Source: a virus
Strand: one strand, 5' to 3'
Length of the DNA stretch: 52,642 nt
Virus record (IMG/VR): IMGVR_UViG_3300037337_000202
Location: 1-52,642 of that record
The notes below the pieces were generated by a model, which worked only from the letters and a program-made list of their open reading frames with translations, had not been told where the DNA came from and searched no databases. Shown here piece after piece: positions 1-11,670 of this stretch; position 1 is the stretch's first letter; every line of letters begins with the position of its first letter. A program made the translations under genes and the position numbers.

Positions 1-54
1 GACGGCCCGCTTAGACGGTGGGAGGCTGCAAGTTCGAATCTTGCTACTCAGACA
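1..54 (+). tRNA. tRNA, 3' part (window edge)
   Basis: The visible part holds an anticodon arm (stem 6-10/18-22, loop 11-17), a 5-nt variable region and a T arm (28-44) with a normal TTCGAAT loop, then an acceptor strand at 45-51. The 5' half lies outside the window. The loop would give AGA at 13-15, but position 37 would be C, so I do not assign an isotype. Confidence 0.6.
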
Positions 55-94
55 GAAAACTTTAAACATCAAAACCAACCAATCTCCCAAAATG

Positions 95-124
95 TTTTAC
101 TTTTATTACTAGATGTGTTATAAT
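95..124 (+). promoter_or_regulatory. Promoter P95 ahead of the tRNA array
   Basis: TTTTAC at 95, TATAAT at 119-124 preceded by GTG. It matches the window-wide promoter consensus. The next sizeable features downstream are tRNAs, so it probably transcribes the array. The only ORF near it is a six-codon one at 149. Confidence 0.85.
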
Positions 125-326
125 AAACACATACCAAATAAGGAATTTATGAAAAGTTCAAATAATTGAAACAATATAATCAGTGAAAACAGCAACGAGA
201 GCTGGACGAACACTCTAAAAATCGTGCAATGGGCGTACAGTAGGAAGGAGACTCCTTTTGTGGAGTTGAATAAATCTGGTCAGGGTTCGACCCTGACATA
301 GAATGATCATTGGAAGATATGATCAG
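125..326 (+). other. Leader of tRNA array, no gene seen
   Basis: This stretch lies between promoter P95 and the first hairpin. It contains a T-arm-like hairpin near 280-298 (GTCAGGG facing CCCTGAC) and a short stem near 225-262, but I cannot fold a complete tRNA. It may hold a decayed tRNA. Confidence 0.3.
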
Positions 327-393
327 TCTATTCTAAAATGTACCAGAACCGACATGGGGTGCAGCACCCGCGGCTTGTACATTTTAGAATAGA
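327..393 (+). ncRNA. Long-hairpin RNA H1
   Basis: Arms 327-343 and 377-393 are perfect 17-bp complements. The enclosed loop carries a second hairpin (GGGTGC/GCACCC, 357-369). It ends 4 nt before tRNA-Tyr. There is no U tract, so it is not a standard terminator. It may be a processing signal or a stable small RNA. Confidence 0.6.
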
Positions 394-397
394 ATTT

Positions 398-487
398 GGT
401 TCCCATCCCCGCTAGCAGTCTGTAAAACTGCCGTCTAAAAATAAGTGGGTGGTTGGACAAGAGGATCGTAACCTCGGGGGACCACCA
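398..487 (+). tRNA. tRNA-Tyr(GTA), D arm missing from usual place
   Basis: Acceptor GGTTCCC (398-404) pairs with 477-483, followed by A and an encoded CCA. The anticodon arm is at 415-431 with GTA at 422-424. Only ten nt separate acceptor and anticodon stems, too few for a D arm. A long region (432-460) after the anticodon stem contains GGGTGG, which could pair with the CCCC at 407-410. The T loop is ATCGTAA, with A and T at positions 54 and 58. Confidence 0.75.
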
Positions 488-493
488 AATTAT

Positions 494-568
494 ATCGCGT
501 TCGACTTCGGGTGAGGTCAGCAGCCTTTCACGCTGCGTAGACGGGTTCGAGCCCCGTACGCGATGCCA
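494..568 (+). tRNA. tRNA-Glu(TTC)
   Basis: Seven-bp acceptor (ATCGCGT/ACGCGAT), discriminator G and encoded CCA. Anticodon stem GCAGC/GCTGC holds TTC at 527-529. D and T loops are conventional (GG in the D loop, TTCGAGC in the T loop). Confidence 0.93.
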
Positions 569-573
569 AATAT

Positions 574-651
574 GCCCTCGTAACCCAATTGGTATGAGGT
601 ACTTCGCTTAGAACGAAGGTCGTGCAGGTTCGAATCCAGCCGAGGGTACCA
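574..651 (+). tRNA. tRNA-Leu(TAG)-like, short variable region
   Basis: Acceptor 574-580 pairs with 641-647, followed by A and CCA. Anticodon TAG at 609-611 would read leucine CUN codons. The variable region is about 5 nt, unlike the long arm of bacterial tRNA-Leu. T loop TTCGAAT and a GG D loop are normal, with one T-stem mismatch. The amino acid is inferred from the anticodon only. Confidence 0.8.
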
Positions 652-740
652 ACTAAAAGACAAAGATCCAGTAAGGATCTTATAACTCAGTAACCTGGTA
701 AAGGCGAACAGTACTTGAATCAACAAGGTCCAAAATTTAT

Positions 741-823
741 GCGATTGTGGTGGAATAAGGTATACACACCAGACTCAAAATCTGACGTCTTCGGGCATAT
801 CGGTTCGATCCCGATCAGTCGCA
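741..823 (+). tRNA. tRNA-Leu(CAA)
   Basis: Acceptor GCGATTG/CAGTCGC, anticodon CAA at 776-778 and a class II variable arm. The T loop is TTCGATC. CCA is not encoded, unlike most tRNAs here. Confidence 0.9.
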
Positions 824-859
824 CATCTCATTCGAAGTTCGAACCTTATAAATAAGTAC

Positions 860-1543
860 ATGGAGAAAACTATGTACTGTATAATTTATAAGATTACAAA
901 CAAAATAAATAGCAAGATATATATCGGGGCACATAAGACTAAAAATCTCGATGACGGATATATGGGCTCAGGAAAGTATCTAAAGAGTTCTATTAAAAAA
1001 CATGGCTTAGATAACTTTTATAAGGAAGTTCTCTTTGTTTTTGAGACTGTAGAATCAATGTATGCTAAAGAAGCAGAACTAGTTAATGAAGAGTTCTTGG
1101 CTGAAGCCAATACATACAATCTAAAGCTTGGTGGTCAAGGAGGTTGGGGATATGCAAACCTAAATTACTCTTATGATACTAGAGTTAGAGCCGCAGATGC
1201 CGCTAATTTAGTCATAGGTGAAAAATACCAGTCCGACCCAATATTCAAAGAAAAAATGAGTAAGATGGCGACTGATCGGAATAATAAAAGAGTTAGAAAT
1301 GGTGAAAAACTATTTGGCGATAAGCGCCATACATTCAAAGGAATCAGTCATTCCTCTATATCAAAAAAAATTATTGGAGAAAAGGCCGCGATAAGCCAAC
1401 TTGGCGCAGGTAATTCCCAATTTGGGACAATGTGGATAACCAATGGTATCCATAGCATGAAAATTAAGAATAATTGTGATATTCCAATTGGATATCATAA
1501 GGGTAGAAAAATGAAAATTTTAGCCGCAGAATCCGATCAGTAG
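860..1543 (+). CDS. GIY-YIG homing endonuclease within tRNA array
   Basis: A 227-residue protein. The N-terminal 95 residues have the GIY-YIG pattern (YKITN, then KIYIGAHKT, and a YMGSGKYL segment), typical of Seg-like and intron-type phage endonucleases. The C-terminal end holds one copy of a WITNG...IPIGYHKGR module that recurs in the two antisense endonucleases of this window. A start at the second Met (MYC) is equally possible. It sits between tRNA-Leu and tRNA-Pro. Its last codons (1524-1539) match the 5' part of tRNA-Asn at 1649-1664 in 15 of 16 bases, which looks like an insertion scar. Activity and target are not visible. Confidence 0.85.
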   Translation: MEKTMYCIIYKITNKINSKIYIGAHKTKNLDDGYMGSGKYLKSSIKKHGLDNFYKEVLFVFETVESMYAKEAELVNEEFLAEANTYNLKLGGQGGWGYANLNYSYDTRVRAADAANLVIGEKYQSDPIFKEKMSKMATDRNNKRVRNGEKLFGDKRHTFKGISHSSISKKIIGEKAAISQLGAGNSQFGTMWITNGIHSMKIKNNCDIPIGYHKGRKMKILAAESDQ

Positions 1544-1556
1544 AAACTGATTTAAT

Positions 1557-1630
1557 CAGAGTATGGGATAAAAGTAGTCCTCTAGTTTTGGAAACTAGAA
1601 GCCCAGGGGCGGTACCTGGTACTCTGACCA
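1557..1630 (+). tRNA. tRNA-Pro(TGG), non-canonical elbow
   Basis: Acceptor CAGAGTA/TACTCTG, A and encoded CCA. Anticodon TGG at 1589-1591 in a perfect CTAGT/ACTAG stem. The T loop is GGCGGTA rather than TTCRANT. The D loop (TAAAAGTAG) has AG where GG is expected. Confidence 0.88.
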
Positions 1631-1645
1631 ATTTAAGAATGTTTT

Positions 1646-1725
1646 GCTCCGCAGAATCCGAGCATGGCGCATGGACGTGACTGTTAATCACTGACTAGTC
1701 TGGTTCGATCCCAGAGTGCGGAGCA
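1646..1725 (+). tRNA. tRNA-Asn(GTT)
   Basis: Acceptor GCTCCGC/GCGGAGC, anticodon GTT at 1683-1685. D loop with GG and T loop TTCGATC are canonical. CCA is not encoded. The 5' part is duplicated at the end of the upstream endonuclease gene. Confidence 0.92.
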
Positions 1726-1753
1726 AAACATTCTAAACCTAGAGAACTTAGGT

Positions 1754-1824
1754 GTGACGTTATCATAAAAGTAATGACCTGGACTGTGAATCCGGTTAAA
1801 CGGGAGCGTTACCCGTACGTCACC
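1754..1824 (+). tRNA. tRNA-His(GTG), non-canonical elbow
   Basis: Acceptor GTGACGT/ACGTCAC, anticodon GTG at 1786-1788. The T loop is AGCGTTA, with A and T at 54 and 58. The D loop (AAAAGTA) has AG. The base before the acceptor is T, so the usual G-1 is not encoded, although C73 is present. Confidence 0.85.
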
Positions 1825-1848
1825 CCTAAGTTTTTTATCAATTACAAC

Positions 1849-1916
1849 ATGACCTGAAATGTTTTCGGACTGACTCTAGTGAGTTGGAGTAGGTGGTTCG
1901 ATTCCACCCAGGTGTA
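1849..1916 (+). tRNA. tRNA-like gene, isotype unclear
   Basis: A good T arm (GGTGG, TTCGATT, CCACC) is followed by CAGGTGT, which pairs with only five acceptor bases. The central arm folds best as GACTC/GAGTT around a four-base TAGT loop, so no normal seven-base anticodon loop can be drawn. It is either decayed or unusual. Confidence 0.4.
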
Positions 1917-1923
1917 CTTTTTT

Positions 1924-1998
1924 GCCTTGTAAGTGTTGGTGATTACATTTCTGACTTCCACTCAGACGTATCCGGTTTGATTCCGGAACAAGGCTCCA
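1924..1998 (+). tRNA. tRNA-Gly(TCC)
   Basis: Acceptor GCCTTGT/ACAAGGC, discriminator T and encoded CCA. Antic odon TCC at 1957-1959. The T loop is TTTGATT, with T at position 56. The D loop TGGTGATT contains both GG and GA. Confidence 0.9.
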
Positions 1999-2017
1999 TT
2001 TATACATTATCAACTTC

Positions 2018-2099
2018 GCCGGATTCGCCTATTGAGATGGCAACTGTTTTGTAAGCAGTCGAGAAATCAGAGGGTGTTTGATTCACCCATCCGGCACCA
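2018..2099 (+). tRNA. tRNA-Thr(TGT)
   Basis: Acceptor GCCGGAT/ATCCGGC, A and CCA. Anticodon TGT at 2050-2052. The T loop TTTGATT has T56. The D loop TATTGAGAT has GA rather than GG. The variable region is about 12 nt, long for threonine. Confidence 0.88.
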
Positions 2100-2104
2100 T
2101 TTTT

Positions 2105-2179
2105 AATCCGTTGGCCGAGAAGTTAAGGCATTGGTCTGCAAAACCAATTAGATCGGGGCGGTTCCGATACGGATTTCCA
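2105..2179 (+). tRNA. tRNA-Cys(GCA), non-canonical elbow
   Basis: Acceptor AATCCGT/ACGGATT, T and CCA. Anticodon GCA at 2138-2140 in a perfect stem. T loop GGCGGTT and D loop GAGAAGTTAA (AG in place of GG). Confidence 0.88.
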
Positions 2180-2186
2180 TTAATAA

Positions 2187-2266
2187 GCGAATAGGGACTG
2201 CATGGTGTGGTCGCTTGCCTGTCACGCAAGATATTCAGAGGGGATCGTTACCCCTTATTCGCGCCA
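2187..2266 (+). tRNA. tRNA-Asp(GTC), swapped 54/58
   Basis: Acceptor GCGAATA/TATTCGC, G and CCA. Anticodon GTC at 2221-2223. T loop ATCGTTA has A54 and T58 but keeps T55 and C56. The D loop keeps GG. Confidence 0.9.
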
Positions 2267-2270
2267 ATTT

Positions 2271-2346
2271 GCCGCTTCAGCTAATCAGGTGAAAGCGTCG
2301 GTCTGAAGAACCGAAGAGACTGGTTCGATACCAGTAGGCGGCACCA
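2271..2346 (+). tRNA. tRNA-Phe(GAA)
   Basis: Acceptor GCCGCTT/AGGCGGC, A and CCA. Anticodon GAA at 2305-2307. Canonical D loop with GG and T loop TTCGATA. Confidence 0.93.
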
Positions 2347-2349
2347 ACT

Positions 2350-2407
2350 TTTTATAGATATTCTACATGGCGCCATGGCCAGAATGTTAACATGGTTATC
2401 TATAAAA
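2350..2407 (+). ncRNA. Long-hairpin element H2 between tRNAs
   Basis: Arms 2350-2360 and 2397-2407 are perfect 11-bp complements. The loop holds the palindrome CATGGCGCCATG. It lies between tRNA-Phe and tRNA-Ile and has the same outer-stem plus inner-hairpin plan as H1. Confidence 0.5.
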
Positions 2408-2416
2408 TTCATTTAT

Positions 2417-2491
2417 GCCTGGTAGTCCGAATAGTGAGGGAGCGTTTTGATAAAGCGTTTGAAGTAGGAGCATAACCTACACCAGGTACCA
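2417..2491 (+). tRNA. tRNA-Ile(GAT), non-canonical elbow
   Basis: Acceptor GCCTGGT/ACCAGGT, A and CCA. Anticodon GAT at 2449-2451. T loop AGCATAA has A54, G55 and T58. D loop GAATAGTGA has AG. Confidence 0.87.
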
Positions 2492-2497
2492 ATTTTT

Positions 2498-2571
2498 GGG
2501 ATTGTAACTTAAAGGTAAAGTAACGGACTTTTAATCCGTAGAAGAAGGGTCAGTACCTTCCAGTCCCACCA
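2498..2571 (+). tRNA. tRNA-Lys(TTT), G54/G58
   Basis: Acceptor GGGATTG/CAGTCCC, A and CCA. Anticodon TTT at 2530-2532. T loop GTCAGTA has G at 54 and 58 but keeps T55 and C56. D loop AAAGGTA keeps GG. Confidence 0.9.
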
Positions 2572-2578
2572 AAAACAT

Positions 2579-2655
2579 GTCGTATGTAGCTCAGCGGCCA
2601 AGAGCAGCCCAAGTGTGGGAAGGTCCCCAGGTTCGAATCCTGGCATACGACTCCA
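2579..2655 (+). tRNA. tRNA-like gene, anticodon arm abnormal
   Basis: Acceptor GTCGTAT/ATACGAC, D arm GCTC/GAGC, T arm CCAGG/CCTGG with TTCGAAT, and CCA are all textbook. The middle is 2 nt short and folds as CCCA/TGGG around AGTG, so no U33-type seven-base loop is available. The isotype cannot be assigned. Confidence 0.6.
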
Positions 2656-2662
2656 AATTTAT

Positions 2663-2737
2663 ACATCACGATTGTGAAAGCAGCATGTAGGATTCCAAAT
2701 CCTTACGGACGGGGAGCGTTACCTCGGTGGTGTGCCA
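2663..2737 (+). tRNA. tRNA-Trp(CCA), non-canonical elbow
   Basis: Acceptor ACATCAC/GTGGTGT, G and encoded CCA. Anticodon CCA at 2695-2697. T loop AGCGTTA has A54, G55 and T58. D loop AAAGCAG has AG. Confidence 0.85.
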
Positions 2738-2749
2738 TATATAGATTAT

Positions 2750-2824
2750 TGCGGGAAAATCGATTGGAGCAGATACTACTCTTTGAAAGTAGGTGATTGG
2801 GTTCGATTCCCAAGCCCGCTGCCA
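2750..2824 (+). tRNA. tRNA-Gln(TTG)
   Basis: Anticodon TTG at 2783-2785 in CTACT/AGTAG. Canonical T loop TTCGATT and GG D loop. The acceptor has five strong pairs with mismatches at the ends. CCA is encoded. Confidence 0.88.
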
Positions 2825-2843
2825 TCCTTAACTTAGAACAAAT

Positions 2844-2999
2844 ATGATTGAAGTACTTACAAAATTTAACCCATACGCTTTTATTAATCCTACTACTGAA
2901 GAGGAATATTACAATTTGGTGAATGAAGCCATTCGAATGATCGATGAACTAAATACCGACTTAGATGAGACAACTAACTATCTCGATTCTGGCTTATAA
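2844..2999 (+). CDS. Small hypothetical protein
   Basis: 51 residues, acidic, with no recognised domain. It follows the last tRNA of the first array by 19 nt. Its stop overlaps the start of the next gene (TAATG), so the two are probably translationally coupled. The function is unknown. Confidence 0.6.
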   Translation: MIEVLTKFNPYAFINPTTEEEYYNLVNEAIRMIDELNTDLDETTNYLDSGL

Positions 3000-3580
3000 T
3001 GATGCTTGATAACACTATTAAATCGCAACTAAAAACGTATCTAAAATTGCTTCGCCAACCAATTAAGCTGGTTGCATCCTCAAATGCGACCGTAGAAATG
3101 CTTGAGTTTCTAGACGATATTGCCAGCTTGTCTAATAAGATTACAGTTGAGAATTATTCCCAGGATAAAAGCCTGGCGTCATTTACGATCCAATCAGAGG
3201 CTGTAACATCGGGTGTTCGCTTTGCGGCACTTCCAGTAGGCCAACTTTTAACACCAATGATTTTGGCCATGCTTTGGACTGGTGGCCACCCGCCGGTATA
3301 TTCTGAAAAACTTATTCAGAATATTAAAGACATTAACCTAGACCACGACTTCGATATCTATGTCAGTCAATCCTGCCCAAATGGCCCAAGTGTAATCGAA
3401 GCGCTAGCCTTAATGTGTGTTTTAAATCCCAAGATTACAGTAACTGTAATCGATGGTGCATTATTCACAGAAGATATCGAATTCTTAGGTATCGAAGTTG
3501 TGCCTACAATCCATCATAACAACGACTTTTTTACCCAGGGGCGTATGACTCTAGAAGAAATTTTAGCCAAATTGAACTGA
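2999..3580 (+). CDS. Stand-alone AhpF N-terminal domain protein
   Basis: 193 residues that align along their length with the N-terminal, double-thioredoxin-fold domain of alkyl hydroperoxide reductase subunit F: the opening MLDNTIKSQLKTYL, TGGHPP near 95, the redox-site region near 126, and the closing QGRMTLEEILAKL. In AhpF this domain passes electrons from the flavin domain to AhpC through a CxxC disulfide. Here the flavin part is absent and the motif is CPNG (Cys126, Gly129), so only one redox cysteine remains. A monothiol exchange or glutathionylation role is possible but is inference. It is coupled to the small gene upstream. Confidence 0.85.
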   Translation: MMLDNTIKSQLKTYLKLLRQPIKLVASSNATVEMLEFLDDIASLSNKITVENYSQDKSLASFTIQSEAVTSGVRFAALPVGQLLTPMILAMLWTGGHPPVYSEKLIQNIKDINLDHDFDIYVSQSCPNGPSVIEALALMCVLNPKITVTVIDGALFTEDIEFLGIEVVPTIHHNNDFFTQGRMTLEEILAKLN

Positions 3581-3604
3581 TTGTTGCTTTGGGTAGCGAC
3601 CTGC

Positions 3605-3703
3605 ATTAACTGGTTTTCACCGTTGAGAGTCCTCACAAATGAATTGTAAATAATAAATGAATGATACGGCTCTAGATGAACTTGAATTTCAAGTTCATCT
3701 AGA
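3605..3703 (+). ncRNA. RNA element with 33-nt perfect palindrome (H3)
   Basis: 3671-3686 and 3688-3703 form a 16-bp perfect stem with a one-base centre. Upstream, 3624-3655 is a near copy of the 3' arm of the hairpin ending at 4727, continuing past it. The unit lies between AhpF-like and the next small gene. No ORF fits it. Confidence 0.5.
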
Positions 3704-3770
3704 AATAGGTGATAGTTCGAGTCTACTACTTTCCTCACTTTAAATAAAAATCTAGGCTTAATTTTTAACT

Positions 3771-3950
3771 ATGACCAAATTTAAAGTTTATAATAAGTTG
3801 CATCTTACGGATCAACAATTAGCAAGCGCTTGTTTAACATTTAATCACAGCTTTGGACTCAGGACTGAGGAGCAGCAAAAATCTTTGCCCGCCATGGCGC
3901 GAAGCTGGGAAGATGCCTTCCACAAAGAGCTTGAGAACCCAAGAGACTAA
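3771..3950 (+). CDS. Small hypothetical protein
   Basis: 59 residues with no recognised domain. The ATG at 3771 is the first in a clean frame that ends just before promoter P3952, the usual gene-promoter spacing in this window. No strong Shine-Dalgarno sequence is visible. Confidence 0.6.
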   Translation: MTKFKVYNKLHLTDQQLASACLTFNHSFGLRTEEQQKSLPAMARSWEDAFHKELENPRD

Positions 3951-3951
3951 G

Positions 3952-3981
3952 TTTTACTTTTATTCTGGTCTGTGGTATAAT
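3952..3981 (+). promoter_or_regulatory. Promoter P3952 for hairpin RNA
   Basis: TTTTAC at 3952 and TATAAT at 3976-3981. No ORF follows before the next promoter at 4109. It therefore appears dedicated to the hairpin RNA at 4022-4091. Confidence 0.85.
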
Positions 3982-4016
3982 ATATACATACCAAGAGGAT
4001 TAGAACAGTACCCCAG

Positions 4017-4095
4017 GATTCATTAGATGATACACAGAGACATAGCTCCAGTAAAACGGAGAAGCATGGTGGTTATCGTGTATCATCTAATAAAT
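4017..4095 (+). ncRNA. Promoter-driven long-hairpin RNA H4
   Basis: Arms 4022-4035 and 4078-4091 are perfect 14-bp complements and extend about four more pairs beyond a mismatch. The loop (4036-4077) contains CTCC/GGAG and is nearly repeated at 4500-4546. It lies 40 nt downstream of its own promoter with no ORF. I know no matching RNA family. Confidence 0.65.
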
Positions 4096-4108
4096 CTTGA
4101 AAGCTAAG

Positions 4109-4138
4109 TTTTACTTTTATTCTGGTCTGTGTTATAAT
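4109..4138 (+). promoter_or_regulatory. Promoter P4109 (leaderless type)
   Basis: TTTTAC at 4109, TATAAT at 4133-4138. The ATG of the next gene begins 5 nt after the -10, so the transcript should start at or next to the AUG. Confidence 0.88.
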
Positions 4139-4143
4139 AACTT

Positions 4144-4353
4144 ATGAATACAAAAAACCTCACCCAAGAACAGCGTAAAATTATTTCAACCATGGAACAC
4201 GCAATGTTCAAAATGTCTTCGGCTATCGAATCTCTTGATGAACTCTCCAAAATGGGTGCTCTGAGCTCCCATATGTTCTCGACCAAGAAAATGCTCGAAG
4301 ATGCCGTCGAACAGCTTGAGTTCGACCAGCGTGAAATTTGGAATCAAGTCTGA
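4144..4353 (+). CDS. Small hypothetical protein, leaderless mRNA
   Basis: 69 residues, mostly helical in composition, with an acidic C-terminal half. No family is recognised. The start is fixed by its position 5 nt after the TATAAT of P4109, which leaves no room for a Shine-Dalgarno sequence. Promoter P4354 begins at its stop codon. Confidence 0.72.
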   Translation: MNTKNLTQEQRKIISTMEHAMFKMSSAIESLDELSKMGALSSHMFSTKKMLEDAVEQLEFDQREIWNQV

Positions 4354-4383
4354 TTTTACTTTTATTGTTGGATATGTTATAAT
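4354..4383 (+). promoter_or_regulatory. Promoter P4354 for hairpin RNAs
   Basis: TTTTAC at 4354, TATAAT at 4378-4383, followed by the ACACATACCAA leader. There is no ORF downstream until well past the hairpin RNAs, so it probably transcribes H5, H6 and the following tRNAs. Confidence 0.85.
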
Positions 4384-4418
4384 AAACACATACCAAGGGG
4401 ATTGAAACAGAATTCGTT

Positions 4419-4560
4419 ATTTTTAAGAAGATTCGATCAGCAACCGTTTCGCACTGCTTTCGGTCAATGTTTTAGTGAATTTTCTTAAAAATGGTATATA
4501 GAGACATAGCTCCCGTAAGACGGAGAAGCATGGTGGTTATCATGTATCATCTTATGAATC
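4419..4560 (+). ncRNA. Long-hairpin RNA H5 plus copy of H4 core
   Basis: Arms 4419-4434 and 4477-4492 pair over 16 bp with one G-U. Directly after, 4500-4551 repeats the loop and 3' side of H4 (AGAGACATAGCTCC, then ACGGAGAAGCATGGTGG) but lacks the long 5' arm. No ORF is present. Confidence 0.6.
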
Positions 4561-4594
4561 CCGACAATATGCTCTACAAAGGCACACGATAGGG

Positions 4595-4727
4595 AATTCA
4601 TTTGCGAGGATTCTCAGACGCCAAGGGACCACACCTAAACGTGTTATCCTGCGGCGCTTTGGGGAGGGGAACAGTCAATGCGGTCCCCACCGTCTGGCTT
4701 ATATTTGAGAATCCTCACAAATGAATT
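4595..4727 (+). ncRNA. Long rod-like RNA H6
   Basis: Arms 4595-4616 and 4706-4727 pair over 22 bp with one mismatch. Nested inside are CAGACG/CGTCTG and GGGACC/GGTCCC. This makes a rod of three stacked stems about 130 nt long, ending 13 nt before tRNA-Ser. Part of its 3' arm recurs at 3624-3655. Confidence 0.65.
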
Positions 4728-4740
4728 GTAAATAATATAT

Positions 4741-4834
4741 GGAGGCGCAACCCAACTGGCGATGGGACTGCACTTGAAATGCAACGAGCTGCTAATACCA
4801 GCCTTGGGAGTTCGACTCTACCCCGCCTCCGCCA
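4741..4834 (+). tRNA. tRNA-Ser(TGA)
   Basis: Acceptor GGAGGCG/CGCCTCC, G and CCA. Anticodon TGA at 4775-4777 and a class II variable arm. D loop with GG and T loop TTCGACT, with one T-stem mismatch. Confidence 0.92.
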
Positions 4835-4840
4835 AAATTC

Positions 4841-4926
4841 GGACAAACTGAGAGATTGCCTGTTGCTGGCATGAGAGCACCATAGCATGGCGCAAAATGA
4901 AGGTTTAATTCCTTCATTGTCCACCA
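4841..4926 (+). tRNA. tRNA-like gene, possibly Ala(AGC)
   Basis: GGACAA pairs with TTGTCC before A and CCA. The T arm is GAAGG/CCTTC with loop TTTAATT. A D-like arm GCT/AGC and a possible anticodon loop ATAGCAT (AGC) can be drawn, but about 15 extra bases separate acceptor and D arm. The isotype is tentative. Confidence 0.5.
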
Positions 4927-5222
4927 AAATTAAGGCAATAAGACGCGAACGGCAAGACCGTCGTATGAGCCCTAAGATATAGAACATGACAGAAGGTGCT
5001 TGGCTGAGAAGTTAGACCAAAATTAGTTTCCAAAGCCTGTATCCAGGTCCCGCAACATGGGAAACGTTGCTCTGCGACTCCGGCAATCTGTAAGGGGAGG
5101 GTGCAGTTTCAGCCTGAAGTGAACTCGCAGGATAACCAACCTGCTCATAAAAAAAGGATATGCTGATGGGTAAGCCATAAGTCGTTCGTGTATGGAAAGC
5201 AAGGGCGCAGTAATTTAAAAAG
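4927..5222 (+). other. Non-coding stretch, no gene assigned
   Basis: This stretch holds several short stems, for example ACGG/CCGT near 4950 and GCAAC/GTTGC near 5052-5070, but no convincing ORF or complete tRNA. It lies in the transcript from P4354 and may contain further structured or decayed RNAs. Confidence 0.3.
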
Positions 5223-5224
5223 TT

Positions 5225-5340
5225 TTTGTCTGGTAGCAGTCGCTGGCCAGCCCTGAGATATACGGATCGTCTATCGGTATATCTAACATAGGGTCAGTTC
5301 TCCCAAGAATAAGATGACGTGAGGGGAGAATCCAGACAAA
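5225..5340 (+). ncRNA. Structured RNA H7
   Basis: Outer arms 5225-5233 and 5332-5340 are 9-bp complements. Inside are AGATATAC/GTATATCT (5256-5263/5277-5284) and TTCTCCC/GGGGAGAA. Nested stems without an ORF suggest a stable RNA. The 170 nt after it show no gene before the next tRNA. Confidence 0.5.
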
Positions 5341-5510
5341 TTTATTATGGACAATGACCGGAAATACAATCTGTGCGGCCCGAGTGCGCAATTTATTGCT
5401 GGACAGCATAGGCTTAGAGGTTCTATACCATGAGTATAGAGGTTGACATGGGTATACACTCGACTTCGTTTTATTTGTGATAGAAGATGATAGTACACCC
5501 CACCAAATTT

Positions 5511-5584
5511 GCTCTTATAGTTCAATGATAGAATGCCGCTGTGGTATGGCGGATATCAAGGTTTGATTCCTTGTGGGAGCACCA
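5511..5584 (+). tRNA. tRNA-Thr(GGT)
   Basis: Acceptor GCTCTTA/TGGGAGC, A and CCA. Anticodon GGT at 5543-5545. T loop TTTGATT has T56. D loop AATGATA has GA rather than GG. Confidence 0.9.
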
Positions 5585-5589
5585 TTTTT

Positions 5590-5663
5590 GCGCCTTTACG
5601 ACAACTGGAATAGTCTCATAGTCTTCGAAACTGTGAATGTGGGTTCAAATCCCATGGGGCGCA
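5590..5663 (+). tRNA. tRNA-Arg(TCG)
   Basis: Acceptor GCGCCTT/GGGGCGC, anticodon TCG at 5625-5627, canonical GG D loop and TTCAAAT T loop. CCA is not encoded. Confidence 0.9.
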
Positions 5664-5672
5664 TCATAATAT

Positions 5673-5751
5673 CCGTCGATATGCCGCTTGCCTTCTAAGC
5701 AAGAGAAAGCTAACTGGATTCATGCAGGTTCGACTCCTGCTCGACGGGCCA
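5673..5751 (+). tRNA. tRNA-Arg(TCT) copy 1, no normal D arm
   Basis: Acceptor CCGTCGA/TCGACGG, G and CCA. Anticodon arm CTTGC/GCAAG with TCT at 5694-5696. T arm GCAGG/CCTGC with loop TTCGACT. Only 7 nt separate acceptor and anticodon stems, while 20 nt containing AACTGGATT follow the anticodon stem. The core is shared with the copy at 7722, whose acceptor stem differs but still pairs. Confidence 0.85.
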
Positions 5752-5767
5752 CGCCATTTTTATTTTT

Positions 5768-5846
5768 GCCCAGGTACGCTATTTGGTACCGCGGACTGAT
5801 TCAGAATCAGTTGTTTTTGTGGGTTCGACTCCCATCCTGGGTACCA
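5768..5846 (+). tRNA. tRNA-Leu(CAG)-like, short variable region
   Basis: Acceptor GCCCAGG/CCTGGGT, A and CCA. Anticodon CAG at 5792-5794 in ACTGA/TCAGT. Normal T loop TTCGACT and GG D loop. The variable region is only about 7-9 nt, unusual for leucine. Confidence 0.85.
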
Positions 5847-5852
5847 TTCTTT

Positions 5853-5928
5853 AGTGGCATAGCATAGCGGCTAATGCGGTTTCTTCATATGTAACAGATC
5901 GTGGGTTCGAGTCCCACTGCCACTACCA
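5853..5928 (+). tRNA. tRNA(CAT), Met or Ile2
   Basis: Acceptor AGTGGCA/TGCCACT, A and CCA. Anticodon CAT at 5886-5888. D loop with GG and T loop TTCGAGT. With a TilS-like gene in the phage, one of the two CAT tRNAs may be tRNA-Ile with lysidine at C34. I cannot tell which. Confidence 0.85.
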
Positions 5929-5933
5929 ATTTT

Positions 5934-6024
5934 CACTGTAAGGCTTGGTGCCCGGATCGCGCATCCGAAGATACGTGTTCGATTCCGTACAACTGGACGT
6001 TCTGGGTTCGAGTCCCGGTGCAGT
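5934..6024 (+). tRNA. Class II-like tRNA, isotype unclear
   Basis: Acceptor CACTGTA/TGCAGTG and T arm CTGGG/CCCGG with TTCGAGT are sound. The D arm GGC/GCC is very short. The anticodon stem CGGA/TCCG encloses TCGCGCA, lacking U33. A long variable region holds a second TTCGATT sequence. It may be decayed. Confidence 0.5.
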
Positions 6025-6036
6025 GAAAATTTTTCT

Positions 6037-6124
6037 GGAGAGTAAATCAGTCGGGGACTGAGACTGTCTGCTAAACAGTGCGACCTGGCAACAGGTTTCG
6101 GTTCGAGTCCGATGCTCTCCTCCA
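6037..6124 (+). tRNA. tRNA-Ser(GCT)
   Basis: Acceptor GGAGAGT/GCTCTCC, T and CCA. Anticodon GCT at 6070-6072 in ACTGT/ACAGT, with a class II variable arm. Canonical T loop TTCGAGT. Confidence 0.93.
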
Positions 6125-6126
6125 AA

Positions 6127-6156
6127 CTTTACTTTTATTCCTAGATGTGATATAAT
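6127..6156 (+). promoter_or_regulatory. Promoter P6127
   Basis: CTTTAC -35 region and TATAAT at 6151-6156, followed by the TTATCAAC leader with GGAAATATC before ATG 6179. Confidence 0.87.
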
Positions 6157-6178
6157 AACTTATCAACACGGAAATATC

Positions 6179-6232
6179 ATGACTGAACTTGTTAAGCCGG
6201 TTATTCTCGTTATTATTATTGGTAATCAATGA
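6179..6232 (+). CDS. 17-residue leader peptide ORF
   Basis: A hydrophobic 17-codon ORF placed exactly where genes start after this promoter type (GGAAATATC-ATG). It ends in CAATGA, overlapping the start of the nucleotidyltransferase-like gene by 4 nt. It may serve only for translational coupling. Confidence 0.5.
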   Translation: MTELVKPVILVIIIGNQ

Positions 6233-7008
6233 ACTGGTTAATAATTGGTAGTGTTGCTGTTAAGCATTGGTTTCCAGATGCTCGTGTACCAACTGATATT
6301 GATATTCTTACTCCAGTAAAGATAACTGGTAACGTAAGTAATATCTGTGTGGTAGATTCACAGTGGCATAATGCAGCAGAATACCTAATCAGTATCAATA
6401 AAGACTCTACATTTGCTGACCCTGATGTGTTGTATACCTTAAAAGTATCACATGCTCAATGGAACATCAAATGGGATAAAACCATGTACGACATTGAATT
6501 CTTAAAAAGAAAAGGTTGTACTCTTATTCCTGACTTGCATTCTAAACTGGTTAAGGTTTGGACTGAGACTCATGGCAAAAAGCATGTTAATATGTCAAAG
6601 CCAATGATTGACTTTTTCAGTGACGACGTAAAAAGAGAATATGACCACGAAAAGTTACATGAGTTAGTCGCATTTTATGATCGGCCTATTCATGAACGAT
6701 TGAGGGAAGATCACAATACGGCATGGTGTTCAAAGGAGTTATTCTTTAAAATGACCCTCGAAGATCAATGTCTCTGTGTATTAGAGGAAATGTTAGTAAC
6801 TGCAATTGAACGAAGTAAGCTCACAGTAAATAGTAAGATGAGCGAAAAACTAGGTGCAATGTCGAAGGGTTACTTTCAGCTGGCAACATCGATGACAACC
6901 GGTTGGTTCGCTCTATTCTTAATTGAGCACCGACAAACTTTATTATTTGAAAAGAGAAACACATGGTTAACAAACTTGAATACAGCACTGAAACACTTGT
7001 CCAGCTAG
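6229..7008 (+). CDS. Nucleotidyltransferase-fold phage protein
   Basis: 259 residues. The first 30 carry GSVAVKHW followed by PTDIDIL, the GS...DxD arrangement of the pol-beta-type nucleotidyltransferase fold. The rest is mainly helical, with DFFSDDVKREYDHEKLHELV near 130. The family is common and mostly uncharacterised in phages. Substrate is unknown. It is coupled to the leader ORF upstream and overlaps the next gene. Confidence 0.65.
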   Translation: MNWLIIGSVAVKHWFPDARVPTDIDILTPVKITGNVSNICVVDSQWHNAAEYLISINKDSTFADPDVLYTLKVSHAQWNIKWDKTMYDIEFLKRKGCTLIPDLHSKLVKVWTETHGKKHVNMSKPMIDFFSDDVKREYDHEKLHELVAFYDRPIHERLREDHNTAWCSKELFFKMTLEDQCLCVLEEMLVTAIERSKLTVNSKMSEKLGAMSKGYFQLATSMTTGWFALFLIEHRQTLLFEKRNTWLTNLNTALKHLSS

Positions 7009-7370
7009 CACTTGACGATCCCGGACTTTTTCTTGAAACCTTTGTCAAATTGCTTGATCCAATAGTTTACGCCACCGATCATTACGGGTCAGATAATTAT
7101 CATGGCTACCTGGAACAATTGGAGACCGATCAATCATTTGCTGGAATCTATGTTAAACTAGTTCATTCCGAAGGTGATTGTGAAGGCGGCGGAGATCATT
7201 CTGAGCACATTTGGTCAGTCGGTTTTAATGGAGTACCACCATTTGCTTTTATTAAGATTACTGGCTTTTACAGTTCTCATAATGGAACAGAATGGGATGA
7301 TCTAAGTAGTGCCGTTCTAGTTTATCCACGACAAGTAATGGTCACCCAATATTTTAAAGATAAAGAATGA
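6963..7370 (+). CDS. Hypothetical protein, paralogue of next ORF
   Basis: 135 residues, acidic. It overlaps the previous gene by 46 nt in another frame. Its C-terminal half (GFYSSHNGTEW, then a VLVYPRQV strand) resembles the same region of the ORF at 7360-7710 (GTYSSWGNSTW). They look like tandem paralogues. No function is recognised. Confidence 0.65.
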   Translation: MVNKLEYSTETLVQLALDDPGLFLETFVKLLDPIVYATDHYGSDNYHGYLEQLETDQSFAGIYVKLVHSEGDCEGGGDHSEHIWSVGFNGVPPFAFIKITGFYSSHNGTEWDDLSSAVLVYPRQVMVTQYFKDKE

Positions 7371-7710
7371 CTTTAAAGACGATCTACTAGGTACAGTAAT
7401 TAAACTCATCGCAGAAGATAATGAGCGCGACTTTCCCTTTGGCCCCAGTGTTAATAGAATCGAGGGTCTGAGCCTAAACTGTGTGTATGATGAAAGTGCG
7501 GGTGATGGTAATGAATGCGTTCGAGTAACAGAAATTTGTGTTGATGATGCATTTATTGGACATATCAGAACCATTGGTACTTACAGCTCATGGGGTAATA
7601 GCACCTGGTACCCAGAAGAAACTACATTGGTTAATTTGGTATCAACGATAGTTAACGTCTGGGTAAATGCCGATGGGTCTGAACATCATAAACACAAAAT
7701 GAATTTTTAA
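7360..7710 (+). CDS. Hypothetical paralogue, apparent AUA start
   Basis: The open frame continues 123 nt upstream of the first ATG (7483) and resembles the preceding protein. The natural start in that extension is ATA at 7360, overlapping the end of the preceding gene. With it the product is 116 residues. Alternatives are a short product from ATG 7483, or a one-base frameshift that has separated ATG 7368 from this frame. Confidence 0.5.
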   Translation: MKNDFKDDLLGTVIKLIAEDNERDFPFGPSVNRIEGLSLNCVYDESAGDGNECVRVTEICVDDAFIGHIRTIGTYSSWGNSTWYPEETTLVNLVSTIVNVWVNADGSEHHKHKMNF

Positions 7711-7721
7711 ATAACAAATAT

Positions 7722-7800
7722 GCGCGAGTATGCCGCTTGCCTTCTAAGCAAGAGAAAGCTAACTGGACTCATACAGGTTCGAATCCTGTCTCGCGCGCCA
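7722..7800 (+). tRNA. tRNA-Arg(TCT) copy 2, no normal D arm
   Basis: The core from position 7729 to the end of the variable region is almost identical to copy 1. The acceptor is GCGCGAG/CTCGCGC and the T arm ACAGG/CCTGT, both different from copy 1 yet fully paired. G and CCA follow. Anticodon TCT at 7743-7745. The compensated differences argue that it functions despite lacking a D arm. Confidence 0.85.
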
Positions 7801-7817
7801 TCTATTACGGAGCATAT

Positions 7818-8366
7818 ATGCAAATTCTAGGTCTTGATGTGGCGGGCCATCCACGAAAATGGCTATCAGTAGAAGATGCTATCACATATCATGCTAAGGA
7901 TCAGGTCGCATGGTCATTAGGTGATATTGTTTTCAGGGCTCGAGGTGGATATCAGAGTTCTGGTAGACAGAGTATTATTGAAACCGCATCGATAATATCT
8001 ATTCGCTCTACTAAGTTTGATGTTAGAGATAGAAAAGTTCCGGTGAGTAACCAGACACTATTTTCTCGAGATCGTTGGAATTGTGCTTACTGCGGGCTGA
8101 CATTCAAGGCTAGTCAATTATCTAGGGACCATATTATCCCAAAAAGTAGGGGTGGACTTGATGTATGGCAAAATATTATTTGTTCCTGCAAGTGGTGTAA
8201 TAACAAGAAGGATAATAGGACTCCAGAGGAAGCAGACATGCCATTGCTGTTCCTACCCTATTTGCCGGCATTCGGAGAAAAGATTATTTTAGAGGGTAGG
8301 AATATTCTTGGCGATCAACTAGACTTTCTGAAAAAAACTCTACCGAAAAATTCTCGCTGCCACTAA
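7818..8366 (+). CDS. HNH endonuclease
   Basis: 182 residues from ATG 7818 (GGAG 6 nt upstream), the first start after the tRNA that overlaps the longer open frame. Residues 80-145 hold a classical Cys4 HNH: RDRWNCAYCG, then SRDHIIPKSRGG, then CSCKWCNNKKDNRTPEEA. This form is common in bacteria and cyanobacteria and may act as a mobile or DNA-processing nuclease. The C-terminal tail is unassigned. A clear intrinsic terminator follows at once. Confidence 0.85.
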   Translation: MQILGLDVAGHPRKWLSVEDAITYHAKDQVAWSLGDIVFRARGGYQSSGRQSIIETASIISIRSTKFDVRDRKVPVSNQTLFSRDRWNCAYCGLTFKASQLSRDHIIPKSRGGLDVWQNIICSCKWCNNKKDNRTPEEADMPLLFLPYLPAFGEKIILEGRNILGDQLDFLKKTLPKNSRCH

Positions 8367-10899: not shown

Positions 10900-10976
10900 C
10901 CCACGGGCGCAATAGTGGTAGATGCCCCAGCTTCATAAGCTGGTGATAGTCGGTTCGAACCCGACACGTGGGACCA
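10900..10976 (+). tRNA. tRNA(CAT) copy 2, Ile2 or Met
   Basis: Acceptor CCCACGG/ACGTGGG with one mismatch, A and CCA. Anticodon CAT at 10934-10936 in CCAGC/GCTGG. Canonical D and T loops. It lies 88 nt before the TilS-like gene, which makes it the better candidate for a lysidine-modified tRNA-Ile. Confidence 0.88.
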
Positions 10977-11064: not shown

Positions 11065-11670
11065 ATGCAAGTGTTTAGAACTCTTCCCAAAAAAGTAGTC
11101 GTCGCTTTATCTGGCGGCTCTGACTCAATGGCATGCCTTCATTATTTCTTAGACAAAGGATATGATGTTTCTGCGGCACATTACATTCATTTCAACAGTT
11201 TGTCAGCAGAGCCTGAACACGAATTTGTTCAAAAAACCTGCTCTAATCTAGGTGTCAAGCTGTTTGTTGAAAAACAAGACTCTAAGAATGTAATGCAGAG
11301 TAATGAAGAATTCTGGCGTAATGGCCGATACAAATTTTTCAGAAAATTGTCCACTCCGGTAATAACAGGTCATACTCTTAATGATGTGGTCGAGTGGTAT
11401 CTTTATTCAGCAATGAATGGAAAGGGTTACCTAATGGACTATTCCCACGGAAATGTTGTCAGACCATTTTTTCTAGAGCGAAAAGAAACCCTGTTAAAAA
11501 TTCTAATCGACAAACAGTTAGCATGGTACGAAGATCCATCAAATACAGATGTTGAGTTTTGTAAACGAAATAAAGTTAGACACGATCTACTACCGGTGGC
11601 ACTATCAGTTAATCCTGGTTTGTTTACCATGATTAAAAGAATGGCGATTGAAAAATATAGGGGACTTTAA
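11065..11670 (+). CDS. tilS: TilS-like tRNA(Ile)-lysidine synthase, catalytic domain only
   Basis: 201 residues. The PP-loop SGGSDS lies at 15-20. The signature EDPSNTDVEFCKRNKVRHDLLP near 155-177 is characteristic of TilS, which converts C34 of tRNA-Ile(CAU) to lysidine so that it reads AUA. Bacterial TilS is usually 320-430 residues. This protein lacks the C-terminal domains, like the shorter forms known in some bacteria. It follows a CAT tRNA and is followed by an intrinsic terminator. Activity on the phage tRNA is inferred from proximity. Confidence 0.85.
   Translation: MQVFRTLPKKVVVALSGGSDSMACLHYFLDKGYDVSAAHYIHFNSLSAEPEHEFVQKTCSNLGVKLFVEKQDSKNVMQSNEEFWRNGRYKFFRKLSTPVITGHTLNDVVEWYLYSAMNGKGYLMDYSHGNVVRPFFLERKETLLKILIDKQLAWYEDPSNTDVEFCKRNKVRHDLLPVALSVNPGLFTMIKRMAIEKYRGL

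Follow-up and report, generated by a model that had tools for sequence, protein, structure and literature searches.

The window, by which we mean the whole 52,642-nucleotide stretch that was analysed (IMG/VR record IMGVR_UViG_3300037337_000202), comes from a viral record. Judged from the ORFs, its genes resemble those of T4-like phages, with topoisomerase subunits, an AAA ATPase and SHMT. A dense tRNA array occupies positions 1-6124. A structure scan of the window that did not require a D arm identified two tRNA-Arg(UCU) genes at the sites given in an earlier note, and a tRNA-Tyr(GUA) gene of the same topology. The elements assigned to them are as follows.

5673-5751, + strand: rewired tRNA-Arg(UCU), copy 1; CCA encoded at 5749-5751; R1 model, 68.3 bits
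5680-5682, + strand: copy 1, U8 A9 U linker; TAT is near-invariant among relatives
5683-5684, + strand: copy 1, canonical 3' D strand (GC), directly 5' of the anticodon arm; pairs with 5709-5710; homologous pairs covary
5687-5703, + strand: copy 1, anticodon arm; anticodon UCU at 5694-5696
5709-5710, + strand: copy 1, canonical 5' D strand (GC), 3' of the AGAAA linker; homologous pairs covary
5711-5723, + strand: copy 1, relocated D loop, from the base-20 rule and Levitt covariation; A14 A15 at 5712-5713, G18 G19 at 5716-5717, A20 (Arg determinant) at 5718, U48 at 5723
5724-5740, + strand: copy 1, T arm, from the structure scan and the Rfam alignment
7722-7800, + strand: rewired tRNA-Arg(UCU), copy 2; CCA encoded at 7798-7800; R1 model, 68.9 bits
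7732-7733, + strand: copy 2, 3' D strand (GC), as in copy 1
7758-7759, + strand: copy 2, 5' D strand (GC), as in copy 1
7760-7772, + strand: copy 2, relocated D loop, as in copy 1; GG at 7765-7766, A20 at 7767, U48 at 7772
398-487, + strand: tRNA-Tyr(GUA), same topology; D3' strand CCCGC at 408-412 pairs with GTGGG at 445-449

Copy 1 reads CCGTCGA - TATGCCG - CTTGC CTTCTAA GCAAG - AGAAAGCTAACTGGATTCAT, followed by GCAGG TTCGACT CCTGC - TCGACGG - G - CCA. Copy 2 reads GCGCGAG - TATGCCG - CTTGC CTTCTAA GCAAG - AGAAAGCTAACTGGACTCAT, followed by ACAGG TTCGAAT CCTGT - CTCGCGC - G - CCA. In both copies the structure scan showed a D region of 7 nt in place of the D stem-loop that a canonical cloverleaf carries between the acceptor and anticodon stems, and a V region of 20 nt containing a GG, as the earlier note had described. 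The acceptor, anticodon and T stems were perfect, the T loop was conserved and the CCA was encoded. The acceptor stems of the two copies differ in sequence and each is fully paired, and the T stems differ by one compensating change from G-C to A-T, which agrees with the earlier suggestion that compensatory changes point to functional genes. Rfam RF00005 matched both copies above its cut-off (42.4 and 38.1 bits), only by deleting the D arm, and ARAGORN called neither copy in the window. The total length is normal, at 76 nt for these genes and 75-77 nt for the family, which suggests that parts were moved rather than lost. No canonical copy of tRNA-Tyr or tRNA-Arg(UCU) was called by ARAGORN in the window, and AGA accounted for 21% of the Arg codons in 19 window ORFs.

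Relatives were collected from public viral contigs. A first scan with a loose pattern of the core found 55 viral loci, carrying Arg anticodons UCU, UCG or ACG and one UAU; every locus had this architecture, which argues against chance. An exact-core scan of viral contigs, a set from which near relatives of the window may be absent, gave no match. Three later scans with fewer constraints brought the totals to at least 378 rewired loci and at least about 290 distinct sequences, and structural filtering of the listed matches left 283 distinct sequences. The Ile-type anticodons among these were UAU (123), GAU (57) and CAU (29), and the Arg anticodons were ACG (28), UCG (20), UCU (20) and CCU (6). 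A scan of viral contigs for anticodons with a middle G or U had 0 matches, and the middle-A scan had at least 116. Because GAAA, TAR, GG and much the greater part of the T loop were fixed in the patterns, the conservation of these motifs is partly circular. Matches were filtered on pairing of the acceptor, T and anticodon stems; D helix pairing played no part in the selection, apart from a single G that was fixed in some of the patterns.

In the long class of the family, the D region reads TAT-NNN-C and the V region W-GAAA-N'N'N'-TAR-..., and the two triplets are complementary (GCC/GGC, CTC/GAG, ACC/GGT and others), forming a D helix that encloses the anticodon arm. RNAalifold recovered this helix unaided from 38 diverse members, together with the acceptor, anticodon and T stems. 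It was paired in 100% of these members, each of its three pairs showed changes on both sides, and its first pair was CG in 18, AU in 11, GC in 7 and UA in 2. Among the 283 listed sequences, which are related and whose counts are not independent events, the helix was fully complementary in 282 and occurred in 19 sequence variants, found in both acceptor types. The window copies belong to a short class with a 2-bp helix (GC/GC in 33 and CC/GG in 6 listed sequences). In this class the anticodon stem gains one pair at its base, at the site of a U.U in the long class. The long-class covariance model matched both copies at the scores given above, and the 2-bp GC/GC helix was absent from their single-sequence MFE folds.

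This helix is not the one in the earlier note, which had paired the ATG before the anticodon stem with a CAT at the end of the V segment. The third ATG/CAT pair was broken in 30 of the 38 diverse relatives and the other two were invariant, so this pairing was rejected in favour of nt 4-6 of the D region with the triplet after GAAA. The invariance of AT...AU is better explained by U8-A14 and a Levitt pair A15-U48, which is G15-C48 in relatives. The possibility that homologues are conventional and the window copies decayed also failed, as the homologues have the same unconventional architecture.

On the 3' side of the D helix, the sequence U-A-R-YU-GG-N-..-Y corresponds to canonical positions 13-21 and 48. 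Position 48 was left unconstrained in the scans used for 15-48 covariation. Among the listed matches, A15 occurred with U48 in 86 of 89 and G15 with C48 or G48 in 77 of 80 (p=2.6e-40, a value overstated because the sequences are related); C48 was the usual partner of G15, and G48 was rare. In canonical tRNA the 15-48 contact is known as the Levitt pair, which has a rare G15-G48 form in E. coli tRNA-Cys (PMC5372741). The D helix pairing and the 15-48 pair of the canonical fold are thus both present, and this covariation suggests that the backbone takes a different path to a D5' strand and D loop in their usual spatial position. In their native order, 0 of 129 relatives were called by ARAGORN. 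When the moved segment was put back, all 129 were called, 128 with the right anticodon; when the segment was shuffled before the same move, 80 of 129 were called.

The canonical order of a tRNA is acceptor - 8,9 - D5' - D loop - D3' - 26 - anticodon arm - variable loop - T arm. In the rewired genes it is acceptor - U8 A9 U - D3' strand - anticodon arm - (N)GAAA linker - D5' strand - D loop (AAYUGG...) - Y48 - T arm, so that the D5' strand and D loop now follow the anticodon arm. Three new links would be required, from 9 to 22, from 44/45 to 10 and from 21 to 48. Judged from known tertiary contacts, these links would join neighbours in the normal L, so that the D stem, U8-A14, 15-48 and the contact of G18/G19 with the T loop could form. 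The RNA is predicted to be made, to fold into an L, to be charged by the host ArgRS, IleRS or TyrRS and to decode on the ribosome.

The base after GG (position 20) was A in 74 of 74 Arg sequences and U in 206 of 209 Ile-type sequences among those listed, and the discriminator was A in 209 of 209 Ile-type sequences and G, A or U in Arg. Bacterial determinants listed in PMC9976931 are A20 for Arg (the main one) and U20 with A73 for Ile, so both groups match the determinants of the bacterial synthetases. The CAU members carry the Ile pattern at the determinant positions and are probably AUA-reading minor tRNA-Ile, with Met as the other possibility. Replacement was examined at listed loci that carry 8 or more canonical tRNAs, with CAU left out and CCU not tabulated. 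A canonical gene with the same anticodon was present in 4 of 72 cases with a rewired gene vs 98 of 303 without (CMH p of about 1e-6, again overstated by relatedness), which indicates that a rewired gene takes the place of the canonical one with that anticodon. The window also carries a CAU-anticodon tRNA at 10900-10976, just upstream of a PP-loop ORF at 11065-11670. This ORF matched Pfam ATP_bind_3 (E=1e-29) and looks like tRNA-Ile lysidine synthetase (TilS), and the phage may encode an AUA-reading tRNA together with its modifying enzyme.

The gap in tRNA-Tyr remarked on earlier was confirmed as a 10-nt D region and a 28-nt V region. The partner strand GTGGG lies within the variable region, and the 5-bp helix was present in the MFE fold. 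Corresponding helices in relatives were CCCCAC/GTGGGG (contigs L072 and L198), CATCA/TGATG (phage 'tikkala' and L081) and CGGCA/TGTCG (L426). The moved strand lies within a variable-arm-like stem CTCC/GGAG in 'tikkala', with the counterpart CCGC/GCGG in L426. The annotated stretch of the 'tikkala' array has no tRNA-Tyr, and an unannotated rewired one was found at L199:3058. A broad Tyr scan returned mostly chance matches and one new true lineage, that of L426. The Tyr(GUA) form is rarer and looser than the Arg and Ile forms, with about five lineages and atypical T loops. By comparison of these sequences it shares the rewired topology, with support that is good but thinner than for Arg and Ile.

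Rewired tRNAs were found in the Streptomyces phages Jay2Jay, StarPlatinum, Braelyn, Mildred21 and TunaTartare, with many further BLAST matches, in the Microbacterium phages A3Wally and Zooman, and in the crAss-like Kehishuvirus 'tikkala' of Bacteroides cellulosilyticus. They are unannotated in all of these named phages except Mildred21, in which the rewired tRNA-Arg(UCG) at 91367-91442 (L205 1495-1570) is called tRNA-Phe(GAA) in GenBank; mis-called rewired tRNAs thus exist in current phage annotations. The rewired pattern had no match in E. coli genomes and plasmids, occurred in 1 of 395 Bacteroidota genomes, which was the genome used as the query, and had only six structural matches in 84,980 cellular species, some on viral-looking contigs. 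Two rewired tRNAs among these lie within large tRNA arrays, on MAG contigs of bacterial appearance, one from Saprospiraceae (L182 4943-5019, beside mfd) and one from Pseudonocardiales (L181, around 4060-4150); these arrays are possibly phage-derived and kept by cells.

A GIY-YIG (SegH/SegE-like) ORF at 860-1543 and an HNH endonuclease ORF at 7818-8366 lie within or beside the tRNA array, the latter starting 18 bp past rewired copy 2. A link to homing endonucleases, prompted by A3Wally, Braelyn, Mildred21, TunaTartare and window copy 2, was rejected, as no enrichment was found; in a motif-based test, an endonuclease lay within 400 bp of 2 of 135 rewired and 22 of 742 canonical genes (p=0.56).

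Other elements of the array are also unusual. The usual T loop is TTCRANY; non-canonical T loops occur in tRNA-His (1754-1824, AGCGTTA), tRNA-Asp (2187-2263, ATCGTTA), tRNA-Ile(GAU) (2417-2488, AGCATAA), tRNA-Trp (2663-2734, AGCGTTA) and tRNA-Tyr (398-484, ATCGTAA), and the D loops of tRNA-His and tRNA-Ile(GAU) are without GG. With these atypical T loops and GG-less D loops, the array holds another type of elbow alteration besides the rewired one. A highly structured RNA at 5215-5342 is closed by TTTGTCTGG/CCAGACAAA (MFE -43.1 kcal/mol; z = -4.5 vs shuffles) and had no match in Rfam. Related stretches of tRNA-like size at 4019-4092 and 4484-4562 have GAGACATAGCTCC-GTAA-ACGGAGAAGCATGGTGGTTATC in common, and the former has a long perfect closing stem (z = -4.8). 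A tRNA-like unit at 5937-6024, with acceptor strands TTCACTG/CAGTGAA, apparently has two serial T arms (TGTTCGATTC and GGTTCGAGTCC), and a tRNA-like gene with CCA at 4841-4923 has about 29 nt between acceptor and anticodon.

The deletion of the D arm in the Rfam alignment and the missing 2-bp helix in the MFE folds of the window copies would fit tRNAs that truly lack a D arm, as animal mitochondrial tRNA-Ser does, and whose long variable region is unstructured, with or without the ATG/CAT pairing. A D helix and D loop are present here, 3' of the anticodon arm; the helix and the 15-48 pair covary, the AAYUGG D loop and GGUUC T loop are conserved in the family, and the broken third ATG/CAT pair also speaks against this explanation, which we regard as improbable. 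Slightly less improbable, and still unlikely, is a tRNA-like fold without a role in translation, such as a mimic or bait for host tRNA-cleaving defences. Phage tRNAs have been tied to evasion of tRNA-targeting defences (PMC10264068), and altered topology could shift recognition, but a decoy would need neither synthetase determinants that track the anticodon nor replacement of canonical genes with the same anticodon.

Permuted and split tRNA genes are known from archaea and red algae (PMC3218864), and precursors could likewise be cut and religated into canonical order. In circular permutation the 3' half lies upstream and the acceptor ends are internal; here the acceptor strands are already at the gene ends, and several internal cut-and-join events would be needed. 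The linker lengths are near-constant, as expected if linkers are structural, and such processing is very improbable. The unusual shape and the lack of an ARAGORN call might suggest that canonical tRNA genes had decayed or recombined into pseudogenes, but at least about 290 distinct sequences retain all stems with compensatory changes, and all stems and the CCA are intact in both window copies, leaving this explanation scarcely any probability.

We therefore consider it very likely, on comparative sequence grounds, that these genes encode working tRNAs with a rewired backbone in which the canonical core contacts are kept. They likely represent an undescribed class of phage tRNA that would be mature and charged, with a chain order other than acceptor-D-anticodon-V-T and a rebuilt L core; as part of the same reading, the class would span Arg, Ile and Tyr acceptors and be mostly missed by common annotation. 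Our best guess at the reason for the rewiring, a tentative and rather doubtful one, is escape from an enzyme targeting tRNA or tRNA genes. No phage tRNA with a relocated D arm was found in the literature searched, with preprints and most subscription journals outside the search, and the terms 'phage', 'virus' and 'permut' were all absent from the text of a 2020 review of non-canonical tRNAs.

To our knowledge, the order of tRNA elements has been treated as universal. A natural family in which the tertiary core is kept and the connectivity changed would show that fold is separable from topology in the best-known RNA. Rewired tRNAs would provide a test of the features read by RNase P, synthetases, modification enzymes, EF-Tu and the ribosome, and a possible scaffold for orthogonal tRNAs. 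Furthermore, missed tRNA genes are revealed in well-studied cultured phages, and the selective cause, such as escape from tRNA-targeting defences, becomes a testable question.

The rewired tRNAs share with canonical bacterial tRNA-Arg and tRNA-Ile (RF00005) the 7-bp acceptor, the T arm with a TTCRA loop, the 7-nt anticodon loop, U8-A14, 15-48, G18 G19 and A20 (Arg) or U20/A73 (Ile). They differ in the placement of the D5' strand and D loop, which come after the anticodon arm, in having a three-way instead of a four-way junction and in a D helix of 2-3 bp. Like the type III mt-tRNA-Ser of metazoans, they have no D arm between the acceptor and anticodon stems, but the D helix and D loop are placed elsewhere and the length is normal (75-77 nt). 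A non-standard order of segments in the gene is shared with the circularly permuted and split tRNA genes of archaea and red algae; those are processed to a standard molecule, whereas the rewired permutation is internal and presumably kept in the mature RNA. The phage tRNA arrays described in PMC10264068 carry anticodon-loop variants that evade host tRNases. Phage-encoded tRNA clusters and possible defence evasion are common to those arrays and the present one, but the anticodon loop is altered there and the backbone topology here.
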